DNA from: Saccoglossus kowalevskii
Lineage: Eukaryota; Hemichordata; Enteropneusta; Harrimaniidae
DNA length: 42,737 nucleotides
Assembly: GCF_000003605.2 (NCBI RefSeq)
Contig: NW_003121911.1
Span: 1,305,618-1,348,354, forward strand
Direction: 5' to 3'
Notes under the pieces: model-generated
Seen by the model: only the letters and a program-made list of their open reading frames with translations
Told to the model about the DNA's origin: nothing
The model's database searches: none
Shown: positions 15,001 through 41,000 of the stretch, piece by piece
Numbering within the stretch: position 1 is the stretch's first letter
How the letters are laid out: each line of letters starts with the position of its first letter
Program-made: the position numbers and the translations under genes

Positions 15001-18000
15001 CTATGCTGTTTGAACCTGAGAGGTAACAGAGCATGATGTCTCTTTTACCAAGAATTTACTGTCCACGATGAGGTCTGATTTTCAGAAAGCCTTGATGAAA
15101 AGACTGATAAACAGTCAGCTTTCTTTTTATGCTTGGCGACTCTTCATCGAATTCTTAGCAGCAGTTTCAATAGATCTTTGTTCATTGATGTTCCACTTGT
15201 CCCAAGTCCCAAGTGATACATAAACCACATAGTCTTCAATTTTGTAACCAGAAAAATGAAATTCATTGTTTTGTCAGTTTTGAAACCTATATTATTGGTT
15301 CTGTTGATAAAGGCATCTTCCCATATCTCAAATTTGTGTGTGGTAATATGATAAAAAATGTATATATTATGACTGACTTAATAGAAATAGGTTATAAGCA
15401 TGGATAACACTGGTATCCAGTCCACTGGTATAATGTTATAATGTTCTGGTATATCTTACATATTCTAATGAGCTTGTTTTTCTGTCTTTACACAGCAAAG
15501 ATACCATGGCTTGGACAACTGAGAACGGTATTGCCAAACACGTAGCAACGACAGGAGAGGTAATTAAGATATATACATATAAGTTGTATCAATCCTCAAG
15601 TCCAAAGCTTGTAGTTTGGGGTTATATTGATCCATGTGTGGATCGATCTATGCAGTTTTCACATTGTATGTACAGTGATTTTTTTTTTTTTTTCGTACAT
15701 AGATCAAACAATCCATACAGCCCTAGTATTGATAATGACGGAAGTGTATATAGCAAATAATATAATTAATCCAAGCCTGTCAATATCTGCTGTCTGTTTC
15801 CCATCATAGAGCTATAAAGGTTATAAACAACATACATTGCATAGACATGCTGGGAAATTACTGTTATGTACAACTGATCATGTTGTATTATTTCCCCGGA
15901 GGGATATCATCCCAATTACTGTGTTTGTAGTTTTTCTGTCTGGTAATTAAAGTAACAGCCTTGCAGTGAAATCAATTACTCCCTGGAAATGGACAGTTGC
16001 TATTGATGATTGGAATGTTTCCTTTAAGTTAGAGGGTCCTTTGTCAGTGTTCTTGAAGTGGATGCTATCCTAGACTCATATGATGCAGTCAAAAATATTT
16101 TTATGAATCATGAAAATTAAATCACTGTGATATTGTTCATGCTCACTTTCCTCTAGACATTGAATATTGAAGATGCAGAGAACGATAAGAGATTTCCTGT
16201 CGGTATTGATCCGGGAACCGATTTCAAACCTCGCACATTACTATGCATGCCAATTTACAACAGTGAGCATAAAATCATTGGAGTAACTCAGCTACTGAAT
16301 AAAACCAATGAACAACCCTTCAATGAGCAAGACATCAATATCTTTGAGGTGATATAATTATTTTGTTTTTACGGTTATCATTGTGTGTTATTCACAGTCA
16401 ATGTCTGTAAAAGTACTATGGCTATATTACCGGTATTACATGCATGTCACATTACTAGAGCTCTCGTTATTTTTCCACACTTTGTTTGGTGCAAATGTGC
16501 TCAGCACAATGCACATTTATTTTAGGCCTTGGAGTCAATGTCTGTTATTATTTATGTATTTTTGCTGTTCTCAGACAGACATTTTGAAATATGTACACCG
16601 ATTTTCAAAATATGCTTGTCATATTAAGTTGCCAGCTTGAGATCAAGATGTGTGGTCTTCAGAGTAGTGAATCAGTCAGTTTTGATTTTTTTTGATGGAC
16701 AATAAGTTCTTGGGGAAACCTGATAACATAAGTGTTATAAATTGCATTCCTGCTTCTAAATGGCATTCAAAATATTAAGAATCTGTCAGTAGGGAAGACA
16801 CATGTCAGTCAACTATCAAGCATAACATAACTTAACGGATCTTTATTTGATTCTTGAAAAAGAATTTGACACTCTGAGCAGTTAACATGCACTTGAAATG
16901 AAATGAAATATCAGACTGAATGTATGTAAGTTGTCTCTGTTGTTAAGTTGCGTTTGATGTACTGCTGCTAAATGTGATGTACACTACTATTAAATAGGCA
17001 GGTAGCCATAAGATATTTATAAAGGCTAAGATAAAATTCATGTTCTGTGCTCTTGGAGTAGCAGATACTGTTTAATTTAATTTTTGAAAACAGCAATATT
17101 TTGCTGATCATATAGTTTTTTGTTGAATACATCAATTTTATCATTAAGCTCATGAAGGCAGTTTGAACCAAATTCAAATTTTGCAATGTTTTGCATGTTA
17201 CTGCACATGTATGCAATGCATTATGGGAGATAACAATTGTAAATAATGGAAAACGAATATCACTCTGGAAACTCACTAGATTGTATGTCAATTTTTTTGA
17301 AATGTTCTAACTAGGATTCATATCATCGAGTAAAACTTTGAGATATGAAGAAATAATTTCACCATAGAAACCTGTGTTAATAAAGCCAATTTTGATCGTT
17401 TTCAATGACATTTGGGAGTCTTCTCTGGTGACCCCAATTTTGTATACGATGGAGATGACGTATAATAGTCTTCGATTTTGCTTGATGCTTCTCAAAACAT
17501 AATTCATTATGCTGTCAATTACATTTGGTTAGATACAAATAAATAGTCTGGCTAGGTCCCGACAAAATGAATGGTACTCAAGTCATGTCTCTGTTGTCAG
17601 CTGCAATACTTTTTCTGCATTTTTTATCCAGAAACATGTTGTGGTAATCTTTTGCGAGAAATCCGGAAATTTTGATTATGAATATGAAAATTCATATTTG
17701 AAAATATTTTTTCTAAAATACATACAGCCGACAGCACCATGACATGACCTACACAGAAGACACTAGACAGTACATCAATGTTGACCATTGTAGCCTGTAT
17801 AAACACCATCACTCTTGTAATATAAAACTCACTTGTTATGTTAGGTTTCCCTCAGCATAGCAGGACAACACGTCACAATTCCACACGTCGTTCACANNNN
17901 NNNNNNNNNNNNNNNNNNNNNNNNNNNNNNNNNNNNNNNNNNNNNNNNNNNNNNNNNNNNNNNNNNNNNNNNNNNNNNNNNNNNNNNNNNNNNNNNNNNN

Positions 18001-21000
18001 NNNNNNNNNNNNNNNNNNNNNNNNNNNNNNNNNNNNNNNNNNNNNNNNNNNNNNNNNNNNNNNNNNNNNNNNNNNNNNNNNNNNNNNNNNNNNNNNNNNN
18101 NNNNNNNNNNNNNNNNNNNNNNNNNNNNNNNNNNNNNNNNNNNNNNNNNNNNNNNNNNNNNNNNTTTTTGAGTTATATTTATACTACTGCTTGAAACAAT
18201 TTAGTTGTACATGAAACCCATTTTATACCATGAGTGGTTACAATTTTTCTGGTCGTGAAATTTTTAAGCTAAAGTGGTTATGCAATGCCACGAAGTAGTC
18301 TCAAAGAACTTTCATTGCGAGTAATTCATGCCGTTAAATTAAACATGTTTTTTCACTCTCAAATTGAATGTTGGGGCGAATGGCAGAGAGTACATGTATT
18401 CATCTGATATTATGTATATTGTATAAACAATGATATCACGTGATGCTGAAATCTGGGTGATGGTACAAAATATTTATATTTATATTTTTTTATTTCAGGC
18501 ATTTGCAATCTTTTGCGGTCTTGGTATGCATAATACCCAGATGTATGAGAATGCTTGTCAATTAATGGCGAAACAAACCGTGGCATTGGAAGTGCTCTCA
18601 TACCATGCAACTGCTCAGCCAGAGGAAACCCACAGACTTAAGGTAGACTCTACAAACTGTTTTCAAACAACTAGATTATTTAAGCTCAAGGGCAGCATAT
18701 AGGGAAAAATTTGTCGTCTAATTACAAGTTACTTCATATTGCCCCCAGGCTTTATTTTAATGGGAGACATCTAGTGTAATCCCTACATGATGCCTGCCTG
18801 TATCTAGATATTAATACTGGGTATTAAAATGTACTTCTTTTTTTTCAGACTGCAGTAATTCCATCTGCTGATCAGTTACAACTGTTCACCTTTAATTTTG
18901 ATGATCTGCAACTGAATGAAGATGAGACATTAACTGCCTCTATAAGGATGTTTCAAGAGTGTGATCTGATCAATTTGTTCCATGTGCCTTACGATGTAAG
19001 TATTTTGTTTTCTATGCTCAAAATAAATCTTGTATGTGTTGTGAATAAGAATACATTCCCGGGGAGAAATTTCTTATTTTCAAAGCTTTGTTTCTCAAAT
19101 AAGTTCCATAAAATCCAAAATTCCCTTGATGATTGAGATAATTGAGTTACTTCGATCCTCGCATACCAAAATTGTTTTTTTACAGTGGTTAACTCCCATA
19201 AACTTACCTGTAATAAAAGTCTTATTTTCACGAAAGTAGTCTGTATCAAATTCTATAGAACTGTATGGATTTCAGTAAAAATTTAACAAAATCTAGCAGT
19301 AATTTTATAGTAGAAGTTTATCAAATTTCCATGAAATTTTTAAATGTACATCAGAAAATTACTGGAATTTGAATAGAAGAGGTTTAAGAGCATATGAGCC
19401 TAGTGGCATATGGCAAGAATTAATCTTGCCTGATTTGTATGTCAGTGTATGCCCAGCAGCTTTTCAAGAATGACCAATGACAGCTTGATAATATTCAGGT
19501 GTCAAGAACTATGTCAAGCTTTGGGCTGGTAAATCCCCATGATTTTAAGCTTTAGTAGGACCAGTATGCGATGTCCTGATACAATGACGTCTTGATGATG
19601 TGCAGGAATAGATGAATAGGGATATGAACACCTCTATCTTGACTTAGCTTGTTGCCCAGTTTATTGACAGCACATCTAGTATCAGTTGGACAAGTTAGAT
19701 TGATATCAAGATCAATATGAAGCTTCTTATTGAGTGGGTCTAATGTTTGGCATTCACCCAGGTAAAAAGATCACCTGCATCAAAGTGATCAGTCCTATTT
19801 AGTAGGCTAAAAGCATTGATGACCAGATCAAAAAATTTAAAAACTGAAATTTAATGTCTGTTAATCCCACTAAATAAAGAGGGGGGGGGGAGCAAGGTCA
19901 CCAGCTAAATAATGACATGCTTTGCATCACAATTAACGAATATCAGGAAGACATTAAAGAAATGATAACTACTGATTTGCATAAGAAGATTAGTTTTGTC
20001 TTATTTGACAGATTGGAATTTTTGCAGTTGTGATTTATTTATAATTATTTTTGTGTCAACTAATTTATATAGGTGATCTGTCGCTGGCTTTTGAGTGTAA
20101 AGAAGAATTATCGTCCTGTGACTTATCATAATTGGAGACATGCTTTCAATGTGGCACAGACGATGTTTGCGATGATTAAGGTTTGTCAGAACAAATAACT
20201 TAAAATATAGATGTTACTGTATAAATTACTGGAGCAAGATTTTAAAAATAGAATAAATGAATTTTTAAATAGATGTATATATGTATGTCGTGCAAATTTG
20301 TCAGCTTGTATTAAAGACCTACCCTAAATTGAATTTGCATTTCAGAGTGGAGGTATGGAGGGAGTGGTTGGTGATTTGGAAGTGTTTGCACTGCTTGTAG
20401 CATGCCTGTGTCATGACTTAGATCACAGAGGAACCAACAATGCATTCCAACAGAAGTAAGTAATATACAGTAGCATGCTTCTGAAGTGTATTGTTGCTAA
20501 TCAAGGGTGACCAAATGTTTTGATTCATTTCTCTGCCTTATTAAACACAAGTGAGGCAGATAAAAAATAATGTCAAACAGTACAATCTTATATTGGTAGA
20601 GTTTTAGCGTACATTGTTTTTCTTCTTTAATCGATTTGTTGTTGAATATAATTTTCATTAAAGCATCATAAACAATATTGCGTGGCCTTGCAGATACATG
20701 CCTGTTTATGGCCCATAAGTCAAACGGGTTAGTTAGAGCCAGAATTTTGACCTTTTAACATGTAAGCTCTACTATCATGTAAGCTTATTTTCGATAATTT
20801 GTCAAGTTTGGTCGCATTGAAAAATATTATTAGTCCCCGTTCGGACGAAGTCCGAAAACGGGGACTTATAATTCGGTCTCCGTTCGTCCGTGTGTCCGTG
20901 CGTCCGTGTGTCCGTGCGTCCGTCCGGAGTCATATCTCAGAGTCCCTTGAACCGATTCCGTTCATTCTTTGCATGTGCCTAGTACTTTATGTGGGACATA

Positions 21001-24000
21001 TGCACATGCAGTGGTTTAGCGATTCGATTCAAAATGGCCGACTGGCAGCCATCTTGTTTTTTGAAAATGTTGTATTTTGGACATGTCAGTTTTCATTCAA
21101 ATTTAGTACATAGATCATACATGTTAGGATACATGTCCCCGACCGTCCGTGAGTCTGTCCGTCCGACCGTCCGTGTGCCCGTCTGTCCGTGCGTCAGTCT
21201 ATCCAACGTCATATTTCAGAATCCTGTGGACCGATTCCGTTCATTCTTTGCATGTGCCTAGTACCTTATGTGGGACATATGCACATGCAGTGGTTTAGCG
21301 ATTCGATTCAAAATGGCCGACTGGCAGCCATCTTGTTTTTTGAAAATGTTGTATTTTGGACATGCTTTGTCAGTTGTCATTCAAACTTGGTACATAGATT
21401 ATACATGTTAGGATACATGTCCATGATGAATCAAAGATGGTCGACTGGCAGGCATCTTGTTTTTGTTTTTTTATGCGGTATCTTGGACGTGCTCTGTCAG
21501 TTTTCATTCAAATTTGGCACATACATGTACTTTATACATGTTAGGATGCATATCCATGACAATTTGTTTCAAAATCTGGTCAAGGATGGCCGATTGACAG
21601 CCATCTGACTTTTTGGCCTTACTACTATATTTCCACAATTTATGTACCATTTTCATTCGTATTTGGCACATACATCATACATATCAGTGTGTTTCATAAT
21701 CAGATCAAAGATGGCTGAATAACGGCTGTTTTTATTTTGGCCATATTACTATGACACGAAACACGTGTTTTGATGTAAATAAACAATCTGTTGTATACGC
21801 CACTTGAAACTCAAGTTTCAAGGACACGCTCGCGACAACCCCTCCGCTTTAATATGACGAGCACAAAGAGAACTTAACGGGGACTGTGTCATTTTCAATG
21901 ACTTGTTTTGTTTAAATTTGTTTCCCAGTTGAGTTGAATAACAACTATAAGGGTGTTTGAGTCTTAGGGTCATGTCTACTTTGATTGCTTATCAGAGGTT
22001 TGTAAATATACTGATTTCTTTTGCTTGAAGGGCTGACTCTCCATTGGCAATACTTTATGGAACATCCACCATGGAGCATCATCATTTCGATCATTGCATC
22101 ATGATATTAAATAGTGAGGTAAATATATCGTAAAAATGTTTTTATTTTTTGAAGATTATGTCTGTTTCCAGGGTGGGTTTATTCAGATCTCTTTGCTGTA
22201 TGGAAGCAGCACGTTCATTGAAATGGAACAGAGTGATAAAACTTGATGCATGTCAGATTCAAAATGGCCGACTGGCTGCCATTTTGATTAAGCGAATTTT
22301 GTTCCAGAGACACATCTGGAATATTATTCATTATATTATTATTCTTAAACTTTATAACAGTGACTATCTAATGTAATTACCTGATCATTAATATTTGATG
22401 AATATCATAGCTTTTTCCATTCAAAGTCAAGGCATTTTGGGGGGTACTCAGTGGGCTATAGACACAACCAAAATTTATGTGGACGGGCTTAGGTTTTAAT
22501 TTATTGAAACAACATTTCCAGCACATTGAGAATTTACATTTTATTAATGATTTCATTCATTACTTAGATATTGATTATGTAAATGATGTCTGTTCATCTG
22601 CAGGGTAACAACATATTTGCCTCTCTTTCCCATGAAGACTATCGAAGAGCTATTAAAATACTAGAAAGTGCAATTTTATCTACAGATTTGGCACTTTACT
22701 TTCGGTAAGTTTAGATAGCGGTATTAAACTGTTTAACTGAGTACATACATTATTCTTTCAATGCCTAGGTAAGTTCAGTCATAAAACCAACTACAGGCCA
22801 ATGCATTGAATGTTCCATTTCATTGTTTCAGAAAACGTGGACAGTTTAGCAGTTTGGTGGAAAAGGGTGACTGTAAGTGGGACGATGATGAAAAGAAAGA
22901 TCTACTGAGGTGAGGAGCCATCATAAGTGGCAGATGTTTCTTGGAACAACATCCAAGATTTAGTACATTATTTTAAAGAAGTGTCGTTCTCAAATGTTCA
23001 TGAGATCATTAGCAGTGAAATTATGCAGTCAAAAAATGAACCATGGTACTGTTTAGAATGATATTAAATCCAAATTACCGAAATGCTTACACACAGGTTA
23101 CAGCCACAAACACCAGCAACTTTTAACCTGTATGACATTTTATTTGTGTAAATACATGTCAAACAATCAAAATGTCTTGTTCCTACTGTCTGATGTGTAG
23201 ACATGATTGTGTTTTAAATGTTGGAAAGTGGAAAACCAGAAAGATTGAGTCAAAATTGCAGAGGAAATGTATCAGTTTGAAAGACCTGTCTCTGATAAAG
23301 AACATTTGTACTTGAAACCAAATTGTGACAGCGATTGATTTTTCAAAAACGTATCCACTATCTTTGACCCATATACAGTACTTAGAAAACATTAATTACT
23401 GGTTCCTTTACTCAACTAAATGTACAAAAAACTTGATTTCTTTCTGCTTATAGGGGAATGATGATGACTGCATGTGACGTTTCTGCCATCACCAAACCAT
23501 GGGAAATTCAACATCGGGTTGCTGAAATGGTTGCTAGTGAATTCTTTGAACAAGGTGATCTAGAAAAAACTCAACTCGGTCAACAACCAATAGTAAGTTA
23601 TGCAAATTCAGTAAAATGATAGATTCCTTCTTTACTCAAAATGACATTAACATAACATTTTATTATAATATTCAATCAACAGTGACCAAGAAAAGTGTGA
23701 TAAAAATAGAATCATGTGACCTCATTGCATTACTGGTTTTTCATCCTATGAGAAACCTCTATGATGGCCATGTGACTCTATTCAACTGTTTGTTAATGCA
23801 AAATTGTTGTTGTGACTAGTTGTGAAAAACCTACACAAGTTGTACTGGTTCCCTCCCTTAGGCAATGATGGACCGTGAAAAGAAGGATGAACTTCCCAAG
23901 ATGCAAGTAGGCTTCATTGATGCAATCTGTACGCCAGTTTATAAGGTAAACATGGATTGTCAAGGAAATTGCAAAAATCAGGAATTCATTATATCGTGTT

Positions 24001-27000
24001 TTCCAGCCACTGAACATTTATTTAGAAGTGCCATTAATCATTTAGTTTTATTTATCAGTTGCATGTCAATAAACGTCACAACTAATGTTTTGATTCTCTG
24101 TATGTTTAGTAATCTACGTACCTCAGTTTTTATACTGACTTACAATTGACAATAAATATCTCTGTATACGTGTCACCACAATCTATCACAAGCCAAATTA
24201 GATTGTCACTAATCATTCTAAAATGTATTTGGGGCCTTGACATATTTCCCAGGAGTGCATTTCATTGAGTCTTTCATTAACTACAAGAAATTCATTGAAT
24301 TTTTTCCAATCTACCATAAATTCGATTTGTTTTTTCACCAGATTACTTCATTTGGCATTTCACCATTTTTTCTTTTACCAATTACTACAAATTCAATCAG
24401 ATCATAAGTATTGATTTGCATCTTCAACTCGTAAGCATCTTCAAATGTAAGCAATTTCATGATTTGATTGTTGTGAATTTGACTAAATTGTTGACAATCA
24501 CTAAAAATTCAGTCACATCAATCTCCAGAAATCCTGACATAATTACATAAAAATAAATATAAAAGTAATTTATTTTTTTTACATTTTTTGATAAGTGCAG
24601 GAAAGTCTCTCATACTTTATTCAGTTCTTTACTAATATAAGTTTTTAAAAATAAATTTTATTAAAATTGATATTTATCAATATATTCTTGTTAAAAACAT
24701 AAAAATAGCGTGAATGCTAGTTCCAGCTTTCACTCAAAACAACTTGCTGCACTTATTCAAAGATAGGGGGTGGTGATAAAAGACTAGATTTTTTATTTAA
24801 TTTAATTTATGAACTATGAAATTCTAGGGTTTTCCACTCATTTTATGTGTCTTATGAAATAAAGGCAATTTTTGTTCAATATTTATGATATTAGGTTACC
24901 CAATCTGTTATCACCATCGTTAAAAAATGTTGTTTTAAATAATATATATTATCTATCAGTATAGTTTAAGAAAGAATGATCCTGGATTGTTTACAAACTC
25001 CGCATCAGCTGACACCTCATCCTCTAAATGAAACTTTATGTTGACACACGTTGACATTCATGTTTTTTATACCTAAAAAATAAGACATCTGGCTCTTCCT
25101 GGAAATATGTCATTTGACTGTCATTTGCAAATATTTGCTGACAATTGTCATGTGTTTAGTCCACATGTTTTTATTTTATGATTAAATAGGGTATTTTATC
25201 CAGGATACCCAGTTCCAGAATGGTAGACATAAAAAAATGGCTGCCAGTCAGCCATCTTGAATTGGATTGCAAATGCATATGTGTGATATGATATACTATT
25301 TTTGCCAGAACAAGTTGAATTGATGTACACCTCAGAATCTGAATTGTCAATTTCCATCAACAGTTTCTTATGTATAAGAGCTAACTTTATTGACAAAAAA
25401 TTATAATTCCTTTATTAGAAGCTTGATCATTCAAGCTTACATTTCAGGTTGAAACATATTGCCAACATATTTAGATGATTATTTAGTCTAGGACTGTAGA
25501 TTTCAAAATGATTTGACAAGAACTTTGCATTTGTTGTTTATTCAAAACATTAAAAAAAATAGTTAAAAACACTTTGCCCAAAATCAGTATCGCATGTACC
25601 GGTAATTGTGTTAAATATCACCTTTTTAAATCATTTCCCCCAGAAAATCTACAGAAAATGATTGAAGTGAATGTAGAATGAAGTCTTACTAGTTATATTT
25701 CTAGCCGTCATGTTTTTTTCCGCATCAGACTGGTTTCCAATTTGGGGTGAAAATTTTGTGAAAGAACTGTTAAGTGACTCACCCAATAAAGTAGCAGTTA
25801 ATACTTATCATGTAATGTTGTCTAAACTTAAATCAGTCCAAGATATCAAGGATCATCCTTTCTTAATTTCAATCTTGAGAGTTTTTTTTGCTTTGTTCAC
25901 ATGTGAGTAAACTTTTAGCCAGTGGTAACGTAGTAGTAAACGCCAAAAGCCTAGCCATTTTAGACCACTGCATGGCACACAATAACAGACAAATATTTTT
26001 TGCTGGCTTTTGTCATCATTCCGCTCTGTCATACTGTTTTCGTTTGATTCATAAAATAATTTCATTTTCAGTTTATACTTTAAATCACTTTTTACTAACT
26101 GCATGTTCGTATCATTTTTAACCCTATATCTTTTTCATTGTTACTTGTAACATTTCTTTAGGCTTTAAAAACGTCAGCTTTGTATTTTTCCCACCTTTTT
26201 TTCAATTTATCATTAACTACAACTTCCTTGTACTAACAAGATTCAATCACATGGTTTCCATGGAAACCTACCTCATCATCACTTCTCTTGTTTTTCCTCT
26301 GATCATTTCTAGATGTTTGCAGATGTGTGGCCAGGGCTGATGCCACTCTATGACGGTGTTAAAACAAACAGAAATAACTGGCAGGCCTTGGCGGATGATC
26401 ATGAGCTTGAGGGTTAGAGTCAATTTATTGATTTTCTCTCACACACAGCTTCTTATTTATCCTATTCTTTATTTGTGTTATGTTTCTGTTATTTTCTCCA
26501 ATTTAGACTTTCGCAGACTTGGAGCCACTTCTGAAACCTCTTTTCGAGGGTTGTCTAAATAACCGCAGGAATTGGCAGTCTCTTGCGGAGCAACACGACA
26601 AGGATATGAGTGAGCACCCAAAGCTCTCTCAACCTGATAATGCAAAGACAAGCAAAGAGGATAAAAAGCAATCCAGTAAAACAGCTGGTGAGGTGACGTG
26701 CTAACTGATCTGAAACTCTAACTGTGTGCATATTTCTGCATGTATTCCATCTGACCTAATACACAACTATCCTCTAGGCAACATCACCTCCTCTATTGTT
26801 TTACTCGCAGACACCAGACACCATAAACAGTCCATATTTTGTTTGTACACAGACCATCTCACTCAAATTGTTTTAGTGTAACTAAGTAGTAGAACAAGAT
26901 AAACGTACAGTACCTTCACTTGACATGCATTTCTTTTCGTATGGGCCAGTTTAGCACCACAAAAAACAACTTGGTGGGGGGGGGGGGGGTAACAATACAA

Positions 27001-30000
27001 AAGCATCACATATCTAGCCTGTGAGGGCAGCCTTCAACCAACCACATCATCAGCATCACTTCTTAATTTGATGCAGTAGAAAGAAGCTTTTCCAAGATTG
27101 ATATTGCTGGACACCAATACAGTAATGCCATCAATGCCAACTGGAAAGTGGACTTTAATCAAGTACATCCAGCCGTAAAAATTCAATGCTTACCAACCTT
27201 ATCAGCTCAAAGTTGGACTCCATCATGAAGGGCTAAAAAAAATGTTTGAAAGACTGAAATAAAACCACTTTTCGCTGAAAGCTGGGAAAAAGCAACAAGG
27301 GCACAACAACTGAAGGGGCACCACAACCGAACAGATTCTTCTGTCAAGTGAACATACATTGAACATGTTTACAATGATTGATTTGTTTTAATAGCATTGG
27401 GAGAATATGAAATCAACTTGCCAGGCAACACACTTAACATCAATGACATTCAGGTATCCATCAAGAAGTTAATAATTATCTCAAATGCACAGTGTGTCAC
27501 TGTAAGCATCACAAATGACATATAGAATGGATGTAGTAACCCTAGTGTATAAGGATTGTGGTTTCCATTGCATGACCGACATAGTCAGGAGAATGGCATC
27601 CAGTTTGAGTATTGTTCCTGCCCTCCATGCATGTAAAATTAATATCACAGTACTCTTGTCATGGAATTCTGTGTGAAAACTCGATGCCATGAAGGCTGTG
27701 AAAAATAACCCTATGGCTATAATAACCTCTCGACAGTGCTATTGGCTATTTGTTGGTGTTTTGACAGAAGAAGACAACTTTTCTTCAGGAATGACAAAGT
27801 AACAATGTTGACAACAAATGTATGTGAATCCAAAAGATGTAACTGTATATAAAAAGTGGCTCTCTCATTTGGATGTGCATTTAAATGTACTGACTCTAGG
27901 TGATGCAGTTAGACGCCAAAAAAAAGAAATAGCTAGAGTTTCTGGTTCAATCATGTAATAATAATCTGTATTGATAAACGTATCCTTAATTGAGATATTG
28001 TTCATGATACAATAAAATAATGTATTTTTAGTCTGTAAGCAATTATTTGAGGACCATTGGATGGAAAGGAACATTGGATGCCAATAATATCACCCTAAAG
28101 ATATCTGATTTTTAACAATCTGACATGAAACAGTCTCAGGTCAAGGTGAAAAGGTTTGACATTCATGAGGGATGAAAAAAGAGAAGATTGTAACTAGCTA
28201 AGGACTGTGGCAGCAAAATCTACATCCGCTATTCCCTCCTCTTTCCAATGCATGACAATATCTTGGGTAAATATGAACACCCCCCCCTGTTTTGAATTTC
28301 AAAGGATTCATTCAGCACTGGACAAAACTTGGCAACATTGTCAGAAATGATTATAACGATGATAGCACTACAAGGAACAATCAGCTGAGTCATGGATAGG
28401 ACGGACCAATAAATGGAATTAATGGATAAAATGCCAACATGTCTCTAGGTCTCCCTCACCTGTTAACATAACGGGCAGGACTACACATAGCAATCATCAA
28501 GCAGGTGTCACTTGCAATTGCTGCAGAACAACACATTAGAACCATCAATGTACATGAGAACAGGCTTGCAACTTGCAATCCCCTTGGGAAGTTTGTCTAT
28601 TTAGTATAGGTAGCATGTCAAGTGAAGGAAAGTATGTTTTTTAGTAAAATAAGTAAATTGACAATTTATCGGCAAAACTGGTAAGTTTAATTTTCTGATG
28701 TTTTTTTTTTATCTTTCTAACCTATGATGTTAATAACGTTTCATATCTTCAATGACTACCTCCGCCAGATTGCACTCAGTCATCATGGGAATGGTCTTCA
28801 CAATTTGTTCATAAAGTTTTCTAATCTTAGTGAAGATTTTGTTAGTTCTCTTCTATGGAGAAGTATTATTTTCAACTTTCCTGAAACTGTGAGACAGATT
28901 GCTTGATTCATATATTTNNNNNNNNNNNNNNNNNNNNNNNNNNNNNNNNNNNNNNNNNNNNNNNNNNGTGGGTGAACAAATTTCTCACATTTCCCTTTCC
29001 CACTTTTGTTCATTCAAGTGTGTGGTACCACTCCTGAACATTAAAGCATGTGTACACAGTGTTGATACATTCAAGTTGTTTTAAAATGACTATTTGGATA
29101 TCAATCTAGCATTGGTTGATCAAATAACATAACATATCAGACCAGTTTCGGCTTGAATTCGTTTTGAGGCGAATAATATACATCAATGCTGTATTGAGAA
29201 TATCAAATGGTCATATATGTTTGTGAACAGTCAGAAATGGCTCATTAATTTTCATGAAAAACAAACCAATGCGGTTACAAAAACTAAACAAACTCTGCAT
29301 CTTTCGCTTCTTGCATATTATGTAATGGCTCACCTGCATAATGTAATGTACACAATACCTATACAAGTAATACATCTGTCAGTTAGTTGCACGTATCCAC
29401 CTCGCAGCTATGTTAAAATGTCTATTACCACCATTCTATTTAGTGAGTACTGTCACAGGTAATGTTTAGACTAGTTCTGGCTTTCTACTGTATTGTAGGC
29501 TTGGCTTGCTTATGCTCTTGCTTCTCATCTCGTCTGCTTGCATAAAAATTAATGTGTCTCATTGCTGTTTTCGTAAAGAGGAATATAAAATATGTGCTTT
29601 CATAAGGTCCTCTCCAAGTCTCCGTCTGTTTTATTTACTGATGATGATCGTAACCCCACACACTTTAATATTTATAAAGTAATTTGTTTACAGTGTCGTT
29701 TTAAAGGGCAAGAAATGCAAAATCATCACCAAATTGGACAATATTGTATTTGATAAATAAATTTTCAGAAAAAGTCTTTCATGTACAATTCTAACCCCCA
29801 CTCCATATCACCAGAAAAACCACTATTTCACTTTGTCACATAAGCCAAATCTTGCCACATTCATCTTCCTATTTCTAATTTTACATGAAAGGCTTAAAAC
29901 TGACACTAAAAACCATATTTGTTCTATTAGAAGTGTCTATGCTTGCATAAAAGACAGAAGCCAGTTTATGGTATAGTAAGTTATATTTTGGTAATCCAGT

Positions 30001-30814
30001 TTACAAGAGTTGCAAATTTTGGTTCACATGCGCTTCTAATAGAGCATATACGGTTGTCATTGTGAAAACTCCAAAAACTATATGACTTACCGCACATTGG
30101 TGGTTTTATTTGTACCAATGATGCCAATATATATTTTTATACAAAAAAACTGCGCTTATTTTCATCACTAGTAATTTTATTCATTGCAGTAATCATCCAG
30201 TGATATGTGGATTGGGGTTTAAGGATTATTAACTGCAATGCAATGCCATTTATAATGTTTGCATGAAGCATTTACAACACTGGGAATATCGCTGCACATG
30301 CTTACCTTGCTCCCATAATCTGTTGCTTGCAATTCCTCTTAAGGTGCTTGCCATCTCTTTCTTTATTTATTTTTTTATTTAGCTTCTGTGATTACAGTGA
30401 ATGTTGGTAATGAAGCTGTACAAATTACTAGCAGTAACTAATGCCAGAGCTTCTAACTCAAAAATACCATCTTTTCCCTCTTTTTGTTCCTATACCAACA
30501 CCATCACCACCACTACTACCAACCACCACCACTGTGGCTTCACAACCCCCCCATCCGCAGACAGCGAGGAAATAAAAGAAGTCAAAAAGTCTGAAGACAC
30601 GAAGGAGAAGCTGAAAGATGATATCAAGCAAAATGAAGTGATCACACCGAGGAAGAAATCGGAGACGTTAGACGATGGTGTGAATGTGGGGAAGCGCAAC
30701 AACAAGAACAAAAAAGAATCACTCAGCTTGGAGCGAAGGTCCAGTATTGTAAATAACCAAGAAAAAGAATCACTTGACTCAAAACAAAAAAGTAGTTTAT
30801 GTGTAGTACTCTGA
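2956..30814 (+). CDS. PDE6: PDE6-type cGMP phosphodiesterase, multi-exon, 5' part missing
   Basis: Gene-level entry. Joined exons: 2956-3096, 13768-13838, 15496-15559, 16157-16348, 18499-18642, 18849-18995, 20073-20180, 20346-20455, 22031-22118, 22604-22704, 22832-22909, 23454-23592, 23862-23945, then 26507-26687 (or 26313-26412), then 30561-30814. All junctions are AG/GT and all phases agree, giving 633 residues plus stop with exon 26507-26687. Seen: GAF-B (about residues 1-160); a catalytic domain with [24 protein letters not shown] and [12 protein letters not shown] (metal ligands H, H, D, D); QVGFID with the conserved nucleotide-binding Gln; and a C-terminal CaaX box. Family knowledge: such enzymes hydrolyse cGMP to GMP. 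The run [20 protein letters not shown] and the CaaX box point to PDE6 rather than PDE5 or PDE11. GAF-A and the start codon are outside the window. The catalytic identity is near certain. The PDE6 versus PDE5 label is an inference from recognised motifs, because no alignment was run. Confidence 0.93.
5582..7014. mobile_element. Inverted-repeat DNA transposon with 7-bp target duplication, hosting copy 2
   Basis: About 100-bp terminal inverted repeats (left from 5589, right to 7007), starting TAGACTGGCGCAGT and containing GGAGGTGTTAGCGCGAAATC. Direct repeats AAGATCT lie at 5582-5588 and 7008-7014, and the next base A also agrees in register, so the duplication is 7 or 8 bp. Length without the nested element is about 560 bp, with no open frame. 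An 8-bp duplication would fit hAT, but the family is not assigned. Confidence 0.82.
5901..6755 (+). mobile_element. HINE/Helentron-like element, copy 2 (four 157-bp cores)
   Basis: The left end is AACAAGCAGCCTCTCGGCTG, followed by the sub-terminal inverted repeat TAGCTCCGCTGT. A tandem array follows, with exact 157-bp spacing (ATATCACTTTTTACC at 6044, 6201, 6358 and 6515). The right end is a hairpin (AGCTCCGCT..GAC-AAA-GTC..AGCGGAGCT) followed by AAAAA. There is no coding sequence. The layout (short inverted repeats, central minisatellite, terminal palindrome) is that of non-autonomous Helentron relatives (HINE, DINE-1, bivalve 'pearl'). That assignment is inference. The boundaries come from comparing the copies. 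Confidence 0.8.
11774..12476 (+). mobile_element. HINE/Helentron-like element, copy 3 (three 157-bp cores)
   Basis: Same family as 5901-6755. The left end is AACAAGCAGCCTATCGGCTG. The core marker is at 11916, 12073 and 12230 (157-bp spacing). The right hairpin is followed by AAAAA. It lies in the 10.7-kb PDE6 intron. Confidence 0.8.
13259..13457. mobile_element. mariner-like MITE with TA duplication
   Basis: A perfect 14-bp inverted repeat, CTGTAAAATACTTT ... AAAGTATTTTACAG, flanked by TA on both sides (13257-13258 and 13458-13459). It is 199 bp, non-coding and AT-rich. It fits a Tc1/mariner-derived MITE. Confidence 0.7.
13768..13838 (+). CDS. PDE6: PDE6 exon: GAF-B strand 2 region
   Basis: 71 bp, phase 0 in and phase 2 out. 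The acceptor is caattcccaatag and the donor is CAAG|gtatgg. It encodes [20 protein letters not shown] then KEP plus two bases, which complete a Ser codon with the next exon. FAMAFDL matches the F.K.FDL strand of GAF-B. It was recognised from phase compatibility on both sides. A 129-codon antisense frame here is a shadow. Confidence 0.85.
13839..15495 (+). other. PDE6 intron
   Basis: It contains the 286-bp TTAA MITE at 13870. Otherwise no feature is seen. Confidence 0.75.
13870..14155. mobile_element. TTAA-flanked MITE, 286 bp
   Basis: Ends are TTAAGGGTAGTAGTTATCG and, reverse-complemented at the right, TTAAAGGGTGGTGGTCATCG, so the inverted repeats begin inside TTAA. TTAA targets fit piggyBac or Kolobok. 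The left end lies 31 bp after the PDE6 donor at 13838. Confidence 0.7.
15496..15559 (+). CDS. PDE6: PDE6 exon: GAF-B
   Basis: 64 bp, phase 2 in and 0 out. The acceptor is ctttacacag and the donor is GAG|gtaatt. After the split Ser codon it reads [20 protein letters not shown], then E. The NGIA..VA.TG segment is the conserved GAF helix of PDE5/6/11. Confidence 0.92.
16157..16348 (+). CDS. PDE6: PDE6 exon: GAF-B core
   Basis: 64 codons, phase 0 to 0, bounded by ctctag and GAG|gtgata. It carries the DAENDKRFP turn, the [17 protein letters not shown] strand pair and [14 protein letters not shown]. The last resembles the GAF motif N-K-(n)-F-xxx-D-E, with N, K, F and D present but Ile where the final acidic residue usually lies. 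Whether GAF-B binds cGMP cannot be told. In PDE5/6 the binding GAF is usually GAF-A, which is not in the window. Confidence 0.95.
16349..18498 (+). other. PDE6 intron with gap
   Basis: No coding or repeat feature recognised apart from the gap. The shorter intron 15560-16156 is likewise empty. Confidence 0.7.
17897..18164. other. assembly gap
   Basis: 268 unresolved bases in the intron before the exon at 18499. Confidence 0.99.
18499..18642 (+). CDS. PDE6: PDE6 exon: GAF-B last helix and linker helix
   Basis: 48 codons, phase 0 to 0, between tatttcag and AAG|gtagac. It opens [20 protein letters not shown], the closing GAF helix, and continues [20 protein letters not shown], the linker helix that leads to the catalytic domain in PDE5/6/11. 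The assembly gap 17897-18164 lies in the intron just upstream. Confidence 0.96.
18849..18995 (+). CDS. PDE6: PDE6 exon: start of catalytic domain
   Basis: 49 codons, phase 0 to 0, between tttttcag and GAT|gtaagt. It reads [20 protein letters not shown] and later [17 protein letters not shown]. The F.FDD.L and T...RMF patterns are the first helices of the PDE5/6/11 catalytic fold. Confidence 0.95.
18996..20072 (+). other. PDE6 intron
   Basis: No feature recognised except a short poly-G run near 19880. Confidence 0.7.
20073..20180 (+). CDS. PDE6: PDE6 exon: catalytic general-acid His motif
   Basis: 36 codons, phase 0 to 0, between tatatag and AAG|gtttgt. It contains [20 protein letters not shown] and then [16 protein letters not shown]. 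In YHNWRH the first His is the catalytic acid and the second a zinc ligand in class I phosphodiesterases. Confidence 0.97.
20346..20455 (+). CDS. PDE6: PDE6 exon: HD metal-binding motif
   Basis: 110 bp, phase 0 in and 2 out, between catttcag and CAGAA|gtaagt. It encodes [20 protein letters not shown] followed by NNAFQQ. HDLDH supplies the His-Asp metal ligands, and RGTNN is invariant in this family. Confidence 0.97.
20833..21884 (-). mobile_element. Hairpin-ended repeat with GTCCCCG termini
   Basis: One end is a hairpin of the type GTCCCCGTTCGGAC / GTCCGAAAACGGGGAC (20833-20865). The other end has a single AACGGGGAC sub-terminal repeat. Inside are clusters of CCGT/GTCC repeats and a near-duplicate block of about 300 bp (21000-21100 and 21273-21370), each with ATTCAAAATGGCCGACTGGC. 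The plan is as in the 157-bp-core family but the sequence is unrelated. The overlapping open frames (up to 139 codons) follow the internal duplication and are not genes. Confidence 0.75.
22031..22118 (+). CDS. PDE6: PDE6 exon: catalytic helix with EHHHF
   Basis: 88 bp, phase 2 in and 0 out, between ttgcttgaag and GAG|gtaaat. It completes a Lys codon and reads [20 protein letters not shown] then HCIMILNSE. The intron before it holds the 20833-21884 repeat. Confidence 0.96.
22119..22603 (+). other. PDE6 intron
   Basis: It holds a fragment at 22255-22285 (ATTCAAAATGGCCGACTGGC) shared with the 20833 repeat. The next intron of comparable size, 22910-23453, shows nothing. Confidence 0.7.
22604..22704 (+). 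CDS. PDE6: PDE6 exon: catalytic domain
   Basis: 101 bp, phase 0 in and 2 out, between catctgcag and TTTCG|gtaagt. It reads [20 protein letters not shown] and ends [11 protein letters not shown]. The I.ATDLALYF-type helix is diagnostic for PDE5/6/11. Confidence 0.96.
22832..22909 (+). CDS. PDE6: PDE6 exon: catalytic domain, variable loop
   Basis: 78 bp, phase 2 to 2, between ttgtttcag and CTGAG|gtgagg. It reads [20 protein letters not shown] then KKDLL. The K/RRG.F start is conserved. The acidic KWDDDEKK stretch is the variable loop before the metal-binding MMTACD helix. Confidence 0.95.
23454..23592 (+). CDS. PDE6: PDE6 exon: MMTACD helix
   Basis: 139 bp, phase 2 in and 0 out, between tgcttatag and ATA|gtaagt. 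[20 protein letters not shown] carries the metal-ligand Asp. [18 protein letters not shown] follows. The QQPI ending, joined to AMMDR in the next exon, resembles vertebrate PDE6 more than PDE5 or PDE11 in this segment. Confidence 0.97.
23862..23945 (+). CDS. PDE6: PDE6 exon: substrate-glutamine motif
   Basis: 28 codons, phase 0 to 0, between ccctccctta-g and AAG|gtaaac. It reads [20 protein letters not shown] and then AICTPVYK. The Gln of QVGFID is the invariant residue that contacts the purine. This is the last constitutive exon before the two alternative exons. Confidence 0.97.
23946..26312 (+). other. PDE6 intron before alternative exons
   Basis: An AT-rich tract at about 24240-24520 has loosely repeated ACTACAAATTCA-like words. 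A reversed GACTGGC-core fragment lies near 25235-25260. No further exon duplicate is convincing. Confidence 0.65.
26313..26412 (+). CDS. PDE6: PDE6 alternative exon 'a' for C-terminal helix
   Basis: 33 codons plus one base. The acceptor is strong (tttttcctctgatcatttctag), phase 0. It reads [20 protein letters not shown] then [13 protein letters not shown]. The matching position in exon 'b' shares 16 of 33 residues (F-A-D, P, L, P-L, G, N-R, N-W-Q, L-A, H). The donor GAGG|gttaga is weak but would leave phase 1, as in exon b. If unspliced, the frame ends at once after one Gly (stop at 26415-26417), giving a short C-terminus. Family knowledge: this is the last catalytic-domain helix (..NR..W..LA). 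Exon identity is very likely. Use of its donor is unproven. Confidence 0.85.
26507..26687 (+). CDS. PDE6: PDE6 alternative exon 'b' for C-terminal helix plus Lys-rich tail
   Basis: 60 codons plus one base. The acceptor is ttctccaatttag, phase 0. The donor GCTG|gtgagg is strong, phase 1. It reads [20 protein letters not shown] then [13 protein letters not shown], and continues into a Ser/Lys/Asp-rich tail ending KKQSSKTA. If the donor is not used, the frame runs five more codons (GEVTC) to a stop at 26702-26704. Only 94 bp separate it from exon a. It joins 30561 in phase, creating an Asp codon. It compares well with the C-terminal tail of vertebrate PDE6 catalytic subunits. Confidence 0.93.
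26913..28628. mobile_element. Candidate 1.7-kb element with 16-bp inverted repeats
   Basis: Perfect termini CCTTCACTTGACATGC and GCATGTCAAGTGAAGG. The interior is less T-rich than the surrounding introns but has no long frame. No target duplication is clear. It lies between PDE6 exon b and the CaaX exon. Confidence 0.45.
28918..28967. other. assembly gap
   Basis: 50 unresolved bases in the intron before the CaaX exon. Confidence 0.99.
29911..30055. repeat. Short fold-back repeat with CTATTAGAAG arms
   Basis: The left arm is AACCATATTTGTTCTATTAG. The right arm reads, reverse-complemented, AACCGTATATGCTCTATTAG. Arms are about 28 bp and total length 145 bp. Related half-arms occur near 40185 and 41637. 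Confidence 0.55.
30561..30814 (+). CDS. PDE6: PDE6 last exon: charged tail ending in CaaX box CVVL
   Basis: 254 bp, phase 1 in, after the polypyrimidine-poor acceptor ccccccatccgcag. It encodes 83 residues that are very hydrophilic ([20 protein letters not shown], later [18 protein letters not shown]) and ends KSSLCVVL then stop. C-V-V-L fits a CaaX prenylation box, and the final Leu favours geranylgeranyl transfer by the usual rule. Vertebrate PDE6 catalytic subunits and Drosophila PDE5/6 are also prenylated. Skipping both alternative exons would put this exon out of frame with a stop after four codons. The upstream extension of the frame to 30401 is intron, rich in CAC/ACC repeats. I place the 3' UTR after 30814, but no poly(A) signal can be chosen confidently. 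Confidence 0.9.
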
Positions 30815-35011: not shown

Positions 35012-38000
35012 CTGGAAGACGGATAAATGTGAAATATGTTACTATAGCAGCACATCTCAAAACAGACAGCTTTCTAATCATGCAGTTATCCATGCTTTGA
35101 TGCACCATGCTGCAGTCTTACACAGTTTCTGCCAGTCATAGCGCAACATAAATTTATACATGTAGTAGTAATAGCAACAATACAGTCTACAATACTAGAA
35201 AATACCATTTTTAGGCCACTCGTATACATTTATGCAATTTCTTTACCCTTTAAAAGTTTTAAACATTTTTTGCGAATTATTTTTTGGCCTAAATTTTAGA
35301 CGGAACAGACATATTCCAATATTAATTTTATCATTTGATGAAAAAGTTTGACTATGTCACCAATTTGTGCAAAAGAACAGTAGCCAAATGGGTTATTTTG
35401 TAAATAGTGCCATGCGTTGACACTCCATGTGTTCATTTTTTGAATCCTCGATCAGTATTGTGCAGTGACAACAGTGAGTACCTAGCGATATAAAACATAC
35501 CTTGATTTCTCTTCTGTAAATTTGACTGGACCTCCCCAGGCTTCTTTTTCAGAAACATCAGTAGTATCTAAAAATACAAAACTGGATTATATTATCTAAA
35601 TGATAATTCTCTGAAAGTACATATAATTAGTTGGTATACAAACAATATAAATTTCTTGTCAAAAATGACTACCGGGGGTAATACCGATATAAGCATTTTT
35701 TTTTAATAAATGCATTATGCGAGTTATTACTGTTACAAACATTAATTTACGTCACACTTTACCCTTGGATGTGCTTGGATGACTACTGGCTTCAGAATCA
35801 CTGCCACTCTCAGAATCACTTGATTCCTTTTTTCTCCTTTTCTTCTTTTTATGGCTTTTATGTTTGTGTTTTCTTTTATGAGAAGTCTTTTCTTTTATTT
35901 TCTTCACCTGTTTTGTTACATCTTTTCTTCTGTGATGATAGTTCAGCTTGTATGAACAATCTGGACAAAGTCCTGGTGAAAATTTTCAAAATGTATACAA
36001 TGCAAGTTGTAGTCCATGGGGCCAAGGTAGATAAGTCATTGTCTATTGGACATAGTCTATTGAAGCCAACACTGTTAATTAAGGAAGACAAGTCATTGTC
36101 CATGGGGCTGACACCTAAGAGAACAAGTCCAAATATCAGTAGAACCATAACCATTATAACCTTAATTTGTATTCCTGAGCCTTATCTACATGTAGGTATC
36201 AAAACAAGATATACTGTATTTACAAGTTACTGAGTTTTACAACTTACTGAGTTTTACAACTTACTGAGTTTTACAACTTACTGAGTTTTACAACTTACTG
36301 AGTTTTACAACTTACTGAGTTTTACAACTTACTGAGTTTTACAAGGGCATTTTTCTTTTCTCCATGTTCAATATATCCAAAGTTAACTTCCCATGTCCTC
36401 AGTCCCTCTTCCTCTGTGCATTTTTTATTACCACAACTGAACTGACCTTTACCGTCCACCACTTCTTTCTCAACTCTCCATCTCAGAGCTACCTAGTAGA
36501 TTTAAAAAATTATGAAATCAGTTACTATTATTATTAAACCTTTGGGCACCAAAGTCGACTTCAGGCACCATCCACAAAATTTCAAATTTTTTCGATCAAA
36601 AACAAGAAGCAATGTCATGTTTTGTCATTCGGGTCCGAAATTATTATTGAATACTGTGAAAATTATCCTCAACAAATCTAAGAGAGGTTTACCTGAGGTA
36701 CCTATATGTATAGTATCAAAGCAATCATCACTTTTTACCAAAAATGACAAAATTCAACAAGATTAGAGAATTAAAGATACCATGAAATGAACAAATCTAA
36801 GAGAGGTCCTCCTTGAGATACCTATAAGTATAATATCAAAGCAATCAGAATTGCGGTTTTCAACAAGAAGTCGAAAATATCACTTTTTACCAAAAAATGC
36901 AAAAATATTCAACAAAATTACAAAATGAAAATGAAATGAACAATTCTAGGTGAGGTCTACCCAAAGTACATATACACAAGTATCAAAGCAATCAGGGTTG
37001 TAGTTTTCAAAAAGAAGTTGAAAAAGTAAAAAGTTGGCGCAGACGATGACGAACAATCACTCATATGATAAGCTCCACTCAACAAAGTTAATAGCGGTGC
37101 TAAAAATGTGAACAAATTTACCTGAATTTAAGCGGAAAAAATTTGGTGCTCAAAGAGTTAAGGTAGAAGTCTACTCACAAATTAAAATACCTAGAATTTT
37201 AGGATTGTACTCCTGGCCAAAATAAAGATATTGAATTTGGGGTCACCAGCCTCAAAAAAAACATTGGCCATTTTTCAGTATTAGAACATTTGTTCCTTAT
37301 GGTGGATATATTATGCCAGACCTCAAACTATTGGAACGTTGCACAGGAAGAAAAAAAGATACATCATGGTTGAAGGCGTTCTTTTCTTTTAACAATCTGG
37401 ATTTTAAATAATGACATTTTGTTTTAAAGGGTGGTGGTCATCGCGCTGTACATGTGCGAAATTTGTGTTAATAAACATTGATTTACCCACAATCCAATGC
37501 GCTCTTCTAATGGAAATCACAAGTATGACCTGGGCGCCACTTGCACTAATTACCTAATTAAGGTAGCAGAATAGTTTTTTTTTTCTCATTTTTTTGTGAA
37601 AATCACAAGCATAGCTCCATAAGGCATGCCACATACATTAGTGTATTTACTTTATTGAAAAAATAATATCTTGTACAAGTAAACTGGTTTTTTTCTTGTG
37701 TGCAAACAAATGGCCAAGTTTTTGTTTATCCAGTGTACACCCCACCAGTACTTCTCATTAATATTCATGCCTAACAAACATAACTGAACTGAGGCTAAGC
37801 TATTTACAAACAACTGATAAGATATCTGTTTGTAGTTTACACACAGCTGATAAGATATGTGCACTGCTTTGTTTCAAGAGAAGGAAGCTGTTGAATAAAC
37901 AAAAAGGTACATGAGTATATCACTCCAACGTATTGCCGGATTCTGCCGTAAATTCGCTTGGGCCGTTTAACGGTAGTTTGGGTTTTTTTAATTTTTTTAA

Positions 38001-41000
38001 ATATTTTGGAAAGTCTAGAGGAATTTACGTTCTAAATGGTTATTTTAAATCTGCAACAATCAATCTGCGTGAAATGATACACCATTGTGCGGGAACTCGG
38101 TTGTAGATTTTTTTTATATGTATCTTTTTATGACCAGATCATGGGAAAAGGCCTTGTTCATGTGGACGGCGCAATTGTTACAATCTCCTCGGCGTATATT
38201 TACACTCTAAGGAGCAAGCAAAGACGCTCATTTCCAAAATAATAATTTAATTAACAATGCCAATAAAAATAAAATAATCCCACATGTACATTGAATTTTA
38301 AAAATGGCAATACGTTTACAGTCGTACATTTCATTTGGTCATCTACAATGTTCGTCGGTATCATTCACAAATACTTGAAGGGCGTCTGTAATTTCTTCAC
38401 CTTCAAATTCTGGGTCACTGTCTTCGTCCAAAAAAATCAAATTCGTCATTTAGCTTCCCCAGCTAACACCTCTTGAAGTTTGCTGTTCAGTGACTCCACC
38501 ATTAGCGGCTTGGTATTCACAGCAGTTTTTCGTTTCCTTAGCGGCGGCACTTACAAAGGCCCGGTAAAGGATGTTTCCCAAGAAGGCGGACGACGCATTC
38601 ATTACGGAAGTGGAAAATATAAACAGACCAGAAAAGTTCGACTGAAGTGGCCAGTTCGCGGCAACAAAAAGTCACCTCGTAATGTCTCAGTTTGTACTAG
38701 TTGATCTGCGCAACAGCCATCTGTGTTTATACGAGACCCATTTTGCGCATGTGTGGCGCGACGACTACCGCCCTTTAACATAGAGTTTTATGGAATCATT
38801 CAACAAATAGATATGTTTGAATAATACCGGGTATTTGGAAAATTTACTACTACATGTACTATGAAACAATAGTTCAGTTCCATGCATGTACATAATAACC
38901 CATGTAATTTATGATCAACTTTATTTTAAATAATATGAACTGCTTACTGTAAATAACACCCCCCCCCCTTGATACCAAATGACCAATCACCTTACTTTAT
39001 TTTCTTTGTATCTACTAAGATCTGATATTGTGTATTCTTTGAATAATTTATCCCAGTATTTTTTGGATAGCTGTTGTGCCCAACTGTCAGCAGCTTCGTC
39101 TGACCACAGGAATCTATGGTTGTCTCTGATTACATCCAAGTCTGTCTTATCATTCACACTGTAATTGCAACATATAATAAATTCTTGTTAGAATACCAAG
39201 AAAAAAATATGTATGGAGATACGCTGAGAGTATTAATTTCTCCTGCATTGCCAATTACCATGGGTGGGGATTAGAGTATCTGGAGATTAGAGTATCTGGA
39301 CATCATCAAACACGAAACTCAATCTGATTAAAATATGACGTAGCTAGAGACACCCGATCACTTTTAATATACGAACAGCTGGTTTATTGCCGCTGATGTA
39401 CAAAGCTCAAATAAGATGAGACTCTTATATAGAAGGAAGATATTGCACTGGAATGTTGGATAAATTAACTACCCTGTAATTAATTTAAAAGAAAATATAT
39501 ATTGTCACAATAGGGTCATTGGCATTTATTGCATGGACTTCTAGTTGTTTTGAAAGTGATGCTGACAAAACAGGAGAAATTGGGCAAATACAACAAGAAA
39601 TTATGAGAAACCATGTGTGTAATTACATTATGGTAGCACAAGCTATTGAAATTCAGGACAAATAGTTCATGTAAAATTTAGTGATACAATTTTCAATTTA
39701 ATACAACCTCTGTAAGGATCACATACAGATTTACAGTAGTAGGAAATAATTTACAGTTTGCAATTAAATAAAAAGTGGAATTAGTCATGAAATACCCATG
39801 AATTAATCATTCAACATGTAAAGATCTAATAAAAACATCAACATGTACATAAAACAAGAGAACAGCTTAACTTGCCATAGAGGGCGCACATAATGACACA
39901 CTTAGATATAGATTTATGAGCAATTGTATACAGGAATTGTTTATAATACTTACGTAGATCTCTTGAAATCTGCTTTTGAACCACCATAATAAAGCATATA
40001 ATCGTTAACAAACTTTTTATGACGAGAGTACTGCAGACATGAATATAAGTTAAGAATTTCAAAACTTATGGCGGTACCGAATTTGATTTATTTAAAAGCA
40101 CATGTGCCTATGGTCAAAATAAATCATGTTACAGTAAATCTACTACAATACATGCAATTTTTTATTTATGTGCACTTCTATTGGAAATGCCTTCTAATAG
40201 AGCAAATGCAGATAAAACAAAATAAAACTGGTGTCTCAGTGTTCAATGATACATTACAGTAAAAAGGGAAAACTCAAATTGAAATAATACACACACAAAA
40301 AAAAAAAATGTATGCAAAAAGCACTTACCGGTAATGAGTGATTTGACATGGCACCCACAGCCCCTAATCACTTTAGCCACATAATCTAGCATGGCTTACA
40401 TTCGGCCACTCCACCCACCCACCCCCACAAAAGGATGCGTATTAACAGAACTTTTCCCATGCATGCAACCCAACATGACCAAATGAATACACAGAGTATA
40501 CTGATAGTGGCTCAGACCCTCCGAACCTGCCAGTCTGATTCACACATGTAGTGATTTATATAGCATTTATTTTTTGATATATTAATTTCTGGTTTATTTT
40601 GAATGATATCAGCAACGGTTTCAATTTCCCCCTTACTCAGTCATTATCATTGATATACAATGTATCTGCTGCTGGACATTTGCCATGGTCCATTGTATTA
40701 CTAGAAACCTGATACATTGTACTCATATTATATGTTGACATCAATACTAATGTGGATAAGGATACAGCATCTAGTCCTAGTATGTGGAATCTTTGATTTC
40801 TTCCTTCTTCTCTGAAATTTTGAGAAAAACAAACCAGAATTAGGTTTATGTTTTCACAGATTCATTGATATACAATTTATAGATACAGTATAAGATTTTA
40901 ATTGTGTAGCTTAGTTGACATGCGACAGCAGCTTCACAAAAGGCGCTATACATTCATTCACTAAGTCGACAATTGATTTAACAATGCTTACCTGTCGTAT

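Follow-up and report, generated by a model that had tools for sequence, protein, structure and literature searches.

Can a single invertebrate phosphodiesterase gene encode two versions of its last catalytic helix? The question is raised by a window of 42,737 nt from Saccoglossus kowalevskii (NW_003121911.1, positions 1,305,618 to 1,348,354), the whole stretch of DNA analysed here. A sequence-only reading had proposed that this DNA carries a PDE6 gene with two tandem, mutually exclusive exons, a and b, for the C-terminal helix of the catalytic domain. The present analysis makes it likely that a tandem exon duplication is indeed used here as a mutually exclusive pair, with one gene probably giving rise to two versions of a membrane-anchored enzyme.

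Gene model and catalytic domain

Open frames were joined at AG/GT borders into a plus-strand gene model with AG and GT at all inner boundaries, in which the catalytic-domain exons e1 to e9 (18499-23945) are followed collinearly by either a or b and then by a final exon. Exons e1 to e4 (18499-18642, 18849-18995, 20073-20180 and 20346-20455) and e5 to e8 (22031-22118, 22604-22704, 22832-22909 and 23454-23592) are open frames with AG/GT borders, and e9 (23862-23945) encodes the QVGFID segment with the invariant glutamine, which aligns with Gln817 of PDE5A (this residue and Trp853 are numbered from the 875-residue PDE5A chain 9lss_A). The final exon (30561-30814) encodes a charged tail that ends in the CaaX box CVVL and a stop, from which prenylation is predicted. 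Counted from e1 (18499), the isoforms are 450 aa long with a and 477 aa long with b, and match PDEase_I at 296.2 and 297.2 bits, respectively (cut-off 24.8).

Upstream and in the same orientation, an exon at 16158-16348 (bounds approximate) matches the GAF domain at 30.6 bits (cut-off 22.4). It is the one exon upstream of the catalytic domain with a GAF match above the cut-off, the exon at 2956 having given none in the profile search, and it lies, as do the other upstream exons, outside the joined model. The predicted gene product is a cGMP phosphodiesterase of PDE5/6-like type that combines a GAF domain with a CaaX end for prenylation.

A run of 50 N at 28918-28967 falls within the intron 3' of exon b, so a further exon is possible there; a second assembly gap occupies 17897-18164. 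Elsewhere in the window, 20766-21720 is repetitive, with recurring segments in several frames, and looks transposon-derived, and a minus-strand open frame at 35755-35985 is rich in Lys, His and Ser (KHKSHKKKKRRKKESS...) and matches no Pfam family above cut-off.

Relationship to PDE5 and PDE6

The name PDE6 proved too specific, as PDE5A scores higher than the PDE6 subunits over the catalytic domain. By bit score alone, on which the assignment is based, full-length PDE5A is the best solved relative (458 bits over query residues 1-365), and over similar spans PDE5A constructs (query residues 41/42-362) reach 394-395 bits and PDE6 subunits 341-352 bits; the last 107-134 residues taken alone favour PDE6 over PDE5. 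"PDE5/6-like with a CaaX end" therefore appears the safer name. PDE5A, the best match to the catalytic domain, has to our knowledge no CaaX end, unlike this gene. Among invertebrate relatives near the PDE5/PDE6 split, the Drosophila PDE5/6 enzyme does carry one. The cnidarian 'PDE6-like' genes, relatives near the same split, are presented without mention of a tandem exon in the available text of PMC9776813.

The catalytic PDE6 ancestor has been placed in tunicates and vertebrates, with none reported in amphioxus, and PDE6-gamma is described as found only in vertebrates (PMC4906994, available text). A genome search for PDE6-gamma with the PF04868 profile returned 0 candidates; since the 14 control genomes lack a positive control from an animal, a small, split gamma gene could have escaped detection. 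A search for the PDE family gave 21 matches on 6 contigs, and the gene's own exons gave three matches at the locus, plus four of lower strength (33-48%) on other PDE contigs; by motif these other genes look like PDE1, 4, 7, 8 and 9. Only the best candidates are scored in the genome search, so a PDE11 or PDE5 gene elsewhere could be missed.

A mitochondrial contig (9001 of 17037 bases) carries COX1 on the strand opposite to COX2, ND1 and ND2, an unusual order. The contig uses TGA for Trp, and by eye AAA falls on Lys, AGA on Ser and ATA on Met positions. This usage agrees with the invertebrate mitochondrial code and argues against vertebrates, echinoderms and sea squirts.

Homology and divergence of the two exons

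Exon a (26313-26412, 100 nt) encodes the C-terminal helix and exon b (26507-26687, 181 nt) the same helix followed by a Lys/Ser-rich tail, both on the plus strand. Their position between the QVGFID and CaaX exons was given exactly in the sequence-only reading, and alignment bears out its description of them as diverged duplicates, with 16 of 33 helix residues identical. A tblastn search of the window with the b helix found exon a at E = 4e-9; the next match, at 39560-39610 (E = 0.011), contains a stop, looks like chance and was rejected as a third exon copy. No copy besides a and b was found in the window, nor among the 3 scored candidates in the 572-Mb genome. When 585 cassettes (open AG...GT stretches of 70-199 nt on the plus strand, with a length of 1 mod 3) were compared with b, a had 16 identities and the best cassette outside the a and b exons had 7. 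Alleles, haplotypes or a stitched assembly are argued against by the nucleotide identity of 59% between a and b and by the single locus.

Each exon searched alone against 177635 distinct solved sequences (E<=10) matched only PDE5 or PDE6 chains: all 21 hits of a (lowest E-value 0.0021, to rod PDE6 alpha) and all 22 of b (lowest E-value 0.00072, to PDE5A). Searches with the helix and its flanking exons, at 141.4 and 140.9 bits for the two isoforms, are less informative, as 73 residues are common to both. A division into a PDE6-like a and a PDE5-like b, to which phmmer leans, was rejected: one PDE5A chain gives a score of 20.3 with a, and identities out of 31 (13 to PDE5A and 12 to PDE6A for a; 12 to PDE5A and 11 to the best PDE6 for b) do not separate the two flavours.

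The exons differ at 41 nucleotides, distributed 10/10/21 over the three codon positions (one-sided permutation p 0.0015), with an NG86 dN of 0.48 and a dS of 1.45 that is near saturation. The concentration of differences at third positions indicates that both a and b evolved as coding sequence, and on these alignments they are the diverged products of an old tandem duplication. This coding-type constraint is, however, history as read from substitutions and no proof of present use; if a was lost from use only recently, no damage need be visible. Exon a would then be a formerly used duplicate, now dying or silent, with b alone in use, a possibility with which the weak donor of a (see below) agrees. 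Against it, the frame, acceptor and phase of a are all intact, and in 20,000 simulations of neutral drift from b with an equal number of changes the frame stayed open in 30% and at least 16 residues were kept in only 0.1%; we regard the loss of a from use as very unlikely.

Reading frame and exclusivity

Joining of the model confirmed that both exons are entered in phase 0 and left in phase 1, from which two failures follow, both anticipated in the earlier reading. With a joined to b, the frame runs into TAA at 26560-26562, 125 nt before the junction of b with the final exon; with both skipped, the final exon reads T-A-R-K-stop, ending at TAA 30573-30575. Phases and failure modes together support a frame lock in which exactly one of a and b leads to the CaaX end.

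Under mutually exclusive use, the old tandem duplication would have copied the exon that encodes the final catalytic helix, and each transcript would take a or b. Transcripts that skip both would lose helix, tail and CaaX box, and those that join a to b are predicted to undergo nonsense-mediated decay, given the distance of the stop from the next junction, so that decay would enforce exclusivity. Decay of double-inclusion transcripts is a known route to exclusivity (PMC6071210, available text). In FGFR2 IIIb/IIIc, as cited there, inclusion of both exons likewise leads to a premature stop and decay, although FGFR2 is a receptor in which this has been established experimentally, whereas in the present gene it would follow from the frame only.

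The same premature stop might instead make a a poison exon, one that reduces expression by triggering decay when included together with b and whose protein product is unimportant. A poison exon has no need of a conserved helix, whereas a alone matches PDE5/6 chains and has diverged from b in the manner of coding sequence, making this explanation extremely improbable.

Splice sites and the choice between exons

With 94 nt, the intron between a and b (26413-26506, plus strand) is shorter than all others of the 11 modelled, which measure 127-3873 nt. Its donor (gttaga) is unlike the U12 consensus, and a U12-type intron was rejected. Scored with a donor matrix, this site is the weakest of 11 at 0.68, little below e3 (0.72) and e1 (0.88); the internal donor of b scores 1.08 and its main donor 7.19. 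A score of 0.68 or more is reached by 6.8% of the 2410 GT sites in the window. These scores suggest that b, whose donor is strong, is probably the default exon and that a is probably the regulated choice. The pyrimidine fraction of the acceptor is 0.82 for a and 0.76 for b (range of the others 0.53-0.82).

A weak donor with an in-frame TAG directly behind it (26415-26417) sustains a live rival, in which a serves as an alternative last exon. The donor of a would stay unspliced and the TAG would end the protein (ELEG), giving a soluble enzyme that lacks both tail and CaaX box, while transcripts with b would yield the prenylated form, the choice being one between soluble and membrane-bound enzyme. 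An AATAAA is present downstream at 27258, but between a and b there is neither AATAAA nor ATTAAA, and the first hexamer comes 846 nt past the donor of a, so b would ride along as untranslated sequence. Exon a also has the AG/GT form, and entry and exit phases equal to those of b, as an internal exon should. In our judgement the soluble form is quite unlikely, and mutually exclusive use of the two exons is preferred.

Splicing of a to b may be hindered by the intron itself, which is perhaps too short. Branch-point candidates lie 42, 46 and 58 nt from the donor of a, in the AG-free stretch of the intron. For OGDH exons 4a/4b, a steric threshold of ~50 nt between donor and branch point has been described (PMC7969005, available text); the candidates at 42 and 46 nt, both YTNAY sites, fall below this value and that at 58 nt above it. 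Like a and b, OGDH 4a/4b go back to an ancient duplication within an enzyme gene, are separated by a short intron (118-131 nt in birds and mammals, against 94 nt in the present gene) and have branch points at about 50 nt or less from the donor (PMC7969005); the enzyme is unrelated, and its branch points and isoforms are experimental, whereas those described here are predicted. Mutually exclusive tandem exons are an arrangement of an already known type.

A possible RNA hairpin (arms 26675-26699 and 26781-26805, plus strand) spans the main donor of b. It has a z of -2.42, with 5 of 200 shuffles as good, at a site picked after the fact, and by duplex energy falls in the lowest 0.57% of 2297 GT sites. 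The openness of this donor in a 300-nt context is 0.28, not unusual beside the 0.13-0.66 of the others, and the predicted hairpin is a lead only.

Consequences for the protein

A tryptophan aligned with PDE5A Trp853 is kept in both a and b, so both isoforms should still be cGMP phosphodiesterases. Partner binding was considered and rejected: the two PDE6 phenylalanines of FVCTFVYK, which act with gamma in PDE6, are Ala and Pro here. No literature on the partner role of these phenylalanines was found among open-licence papers. Trp853 has been named as an inhibitor-energy residue (PMC11338870, available text), and a glutamine-switch reading, in which it would anchor the substrate glutamine, was set aside, since the available text of PMC3069055 argues against such a switch; the claim made here is limited to the residue being kept.

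The proposal that b adds a tail of 27 residues holds for its main donor, but the exon chosen does not fully dictate how long the tail is. An internal phase-1 donor in b (GTGAGC, 26610-26615, plus strand, with the cut at 26609|26610) would leave 1 tail residue and give a protein of 451 aa, against 450 aa for a, so the 27-residue tail may be optional. The isoforms would accordingly differ in the surface of the helix and in up to 27 tail residues before the common CaaX box, depending on the b donor used. By the rule quoted for PDE6, that a CaaX box ending in Leu directs geranylgeranylation (PMC9313453, available text), the CVVL end suggests geranylgeranylation of the gene product.

Implications for the PDE5/6 family

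No report of an exon pair of this kind in the PDE5/6 gene family was found in the open-licence literature. Vertebrate PDE6A, B and C resemble this gene in the catalytic domain and in a CaaX end, prenylated there and predicted to be so here, but owe their diversity to gene duplication and are inhibited by gamma, whereas here a single gene carries an exon pair and gamma was not found; the available text of PMC4906994 does not mention an exon pair.

A broader reading is that exon choice takes the place of this vertebrate gene duplication. It would combine one detectable PDE5/6/11-type gene, the failure to find gamma, and two prenylated cGMP phosphodiesterases, the a helix leaning to PDE6 and the b helix to PDE5, both with the tryptophan behind the substrate glutamine, and with a tail length set by the second b donor and perhaps gated by the hairpin. 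Taken as a whole, we consider it unlikely.

If both exons are used, the two PDE5/6-like enzymes made by this one invertebrate gene would be distinguished by their last catalytic helix, which lies between active site and membrane tether, and the pair would be a natural swap experiment on the role of this helix. In a genome in which no gamma was found, it would also represent an exon-level route to the kind of diversity that vertebrates reached through PDE6A, B and C.
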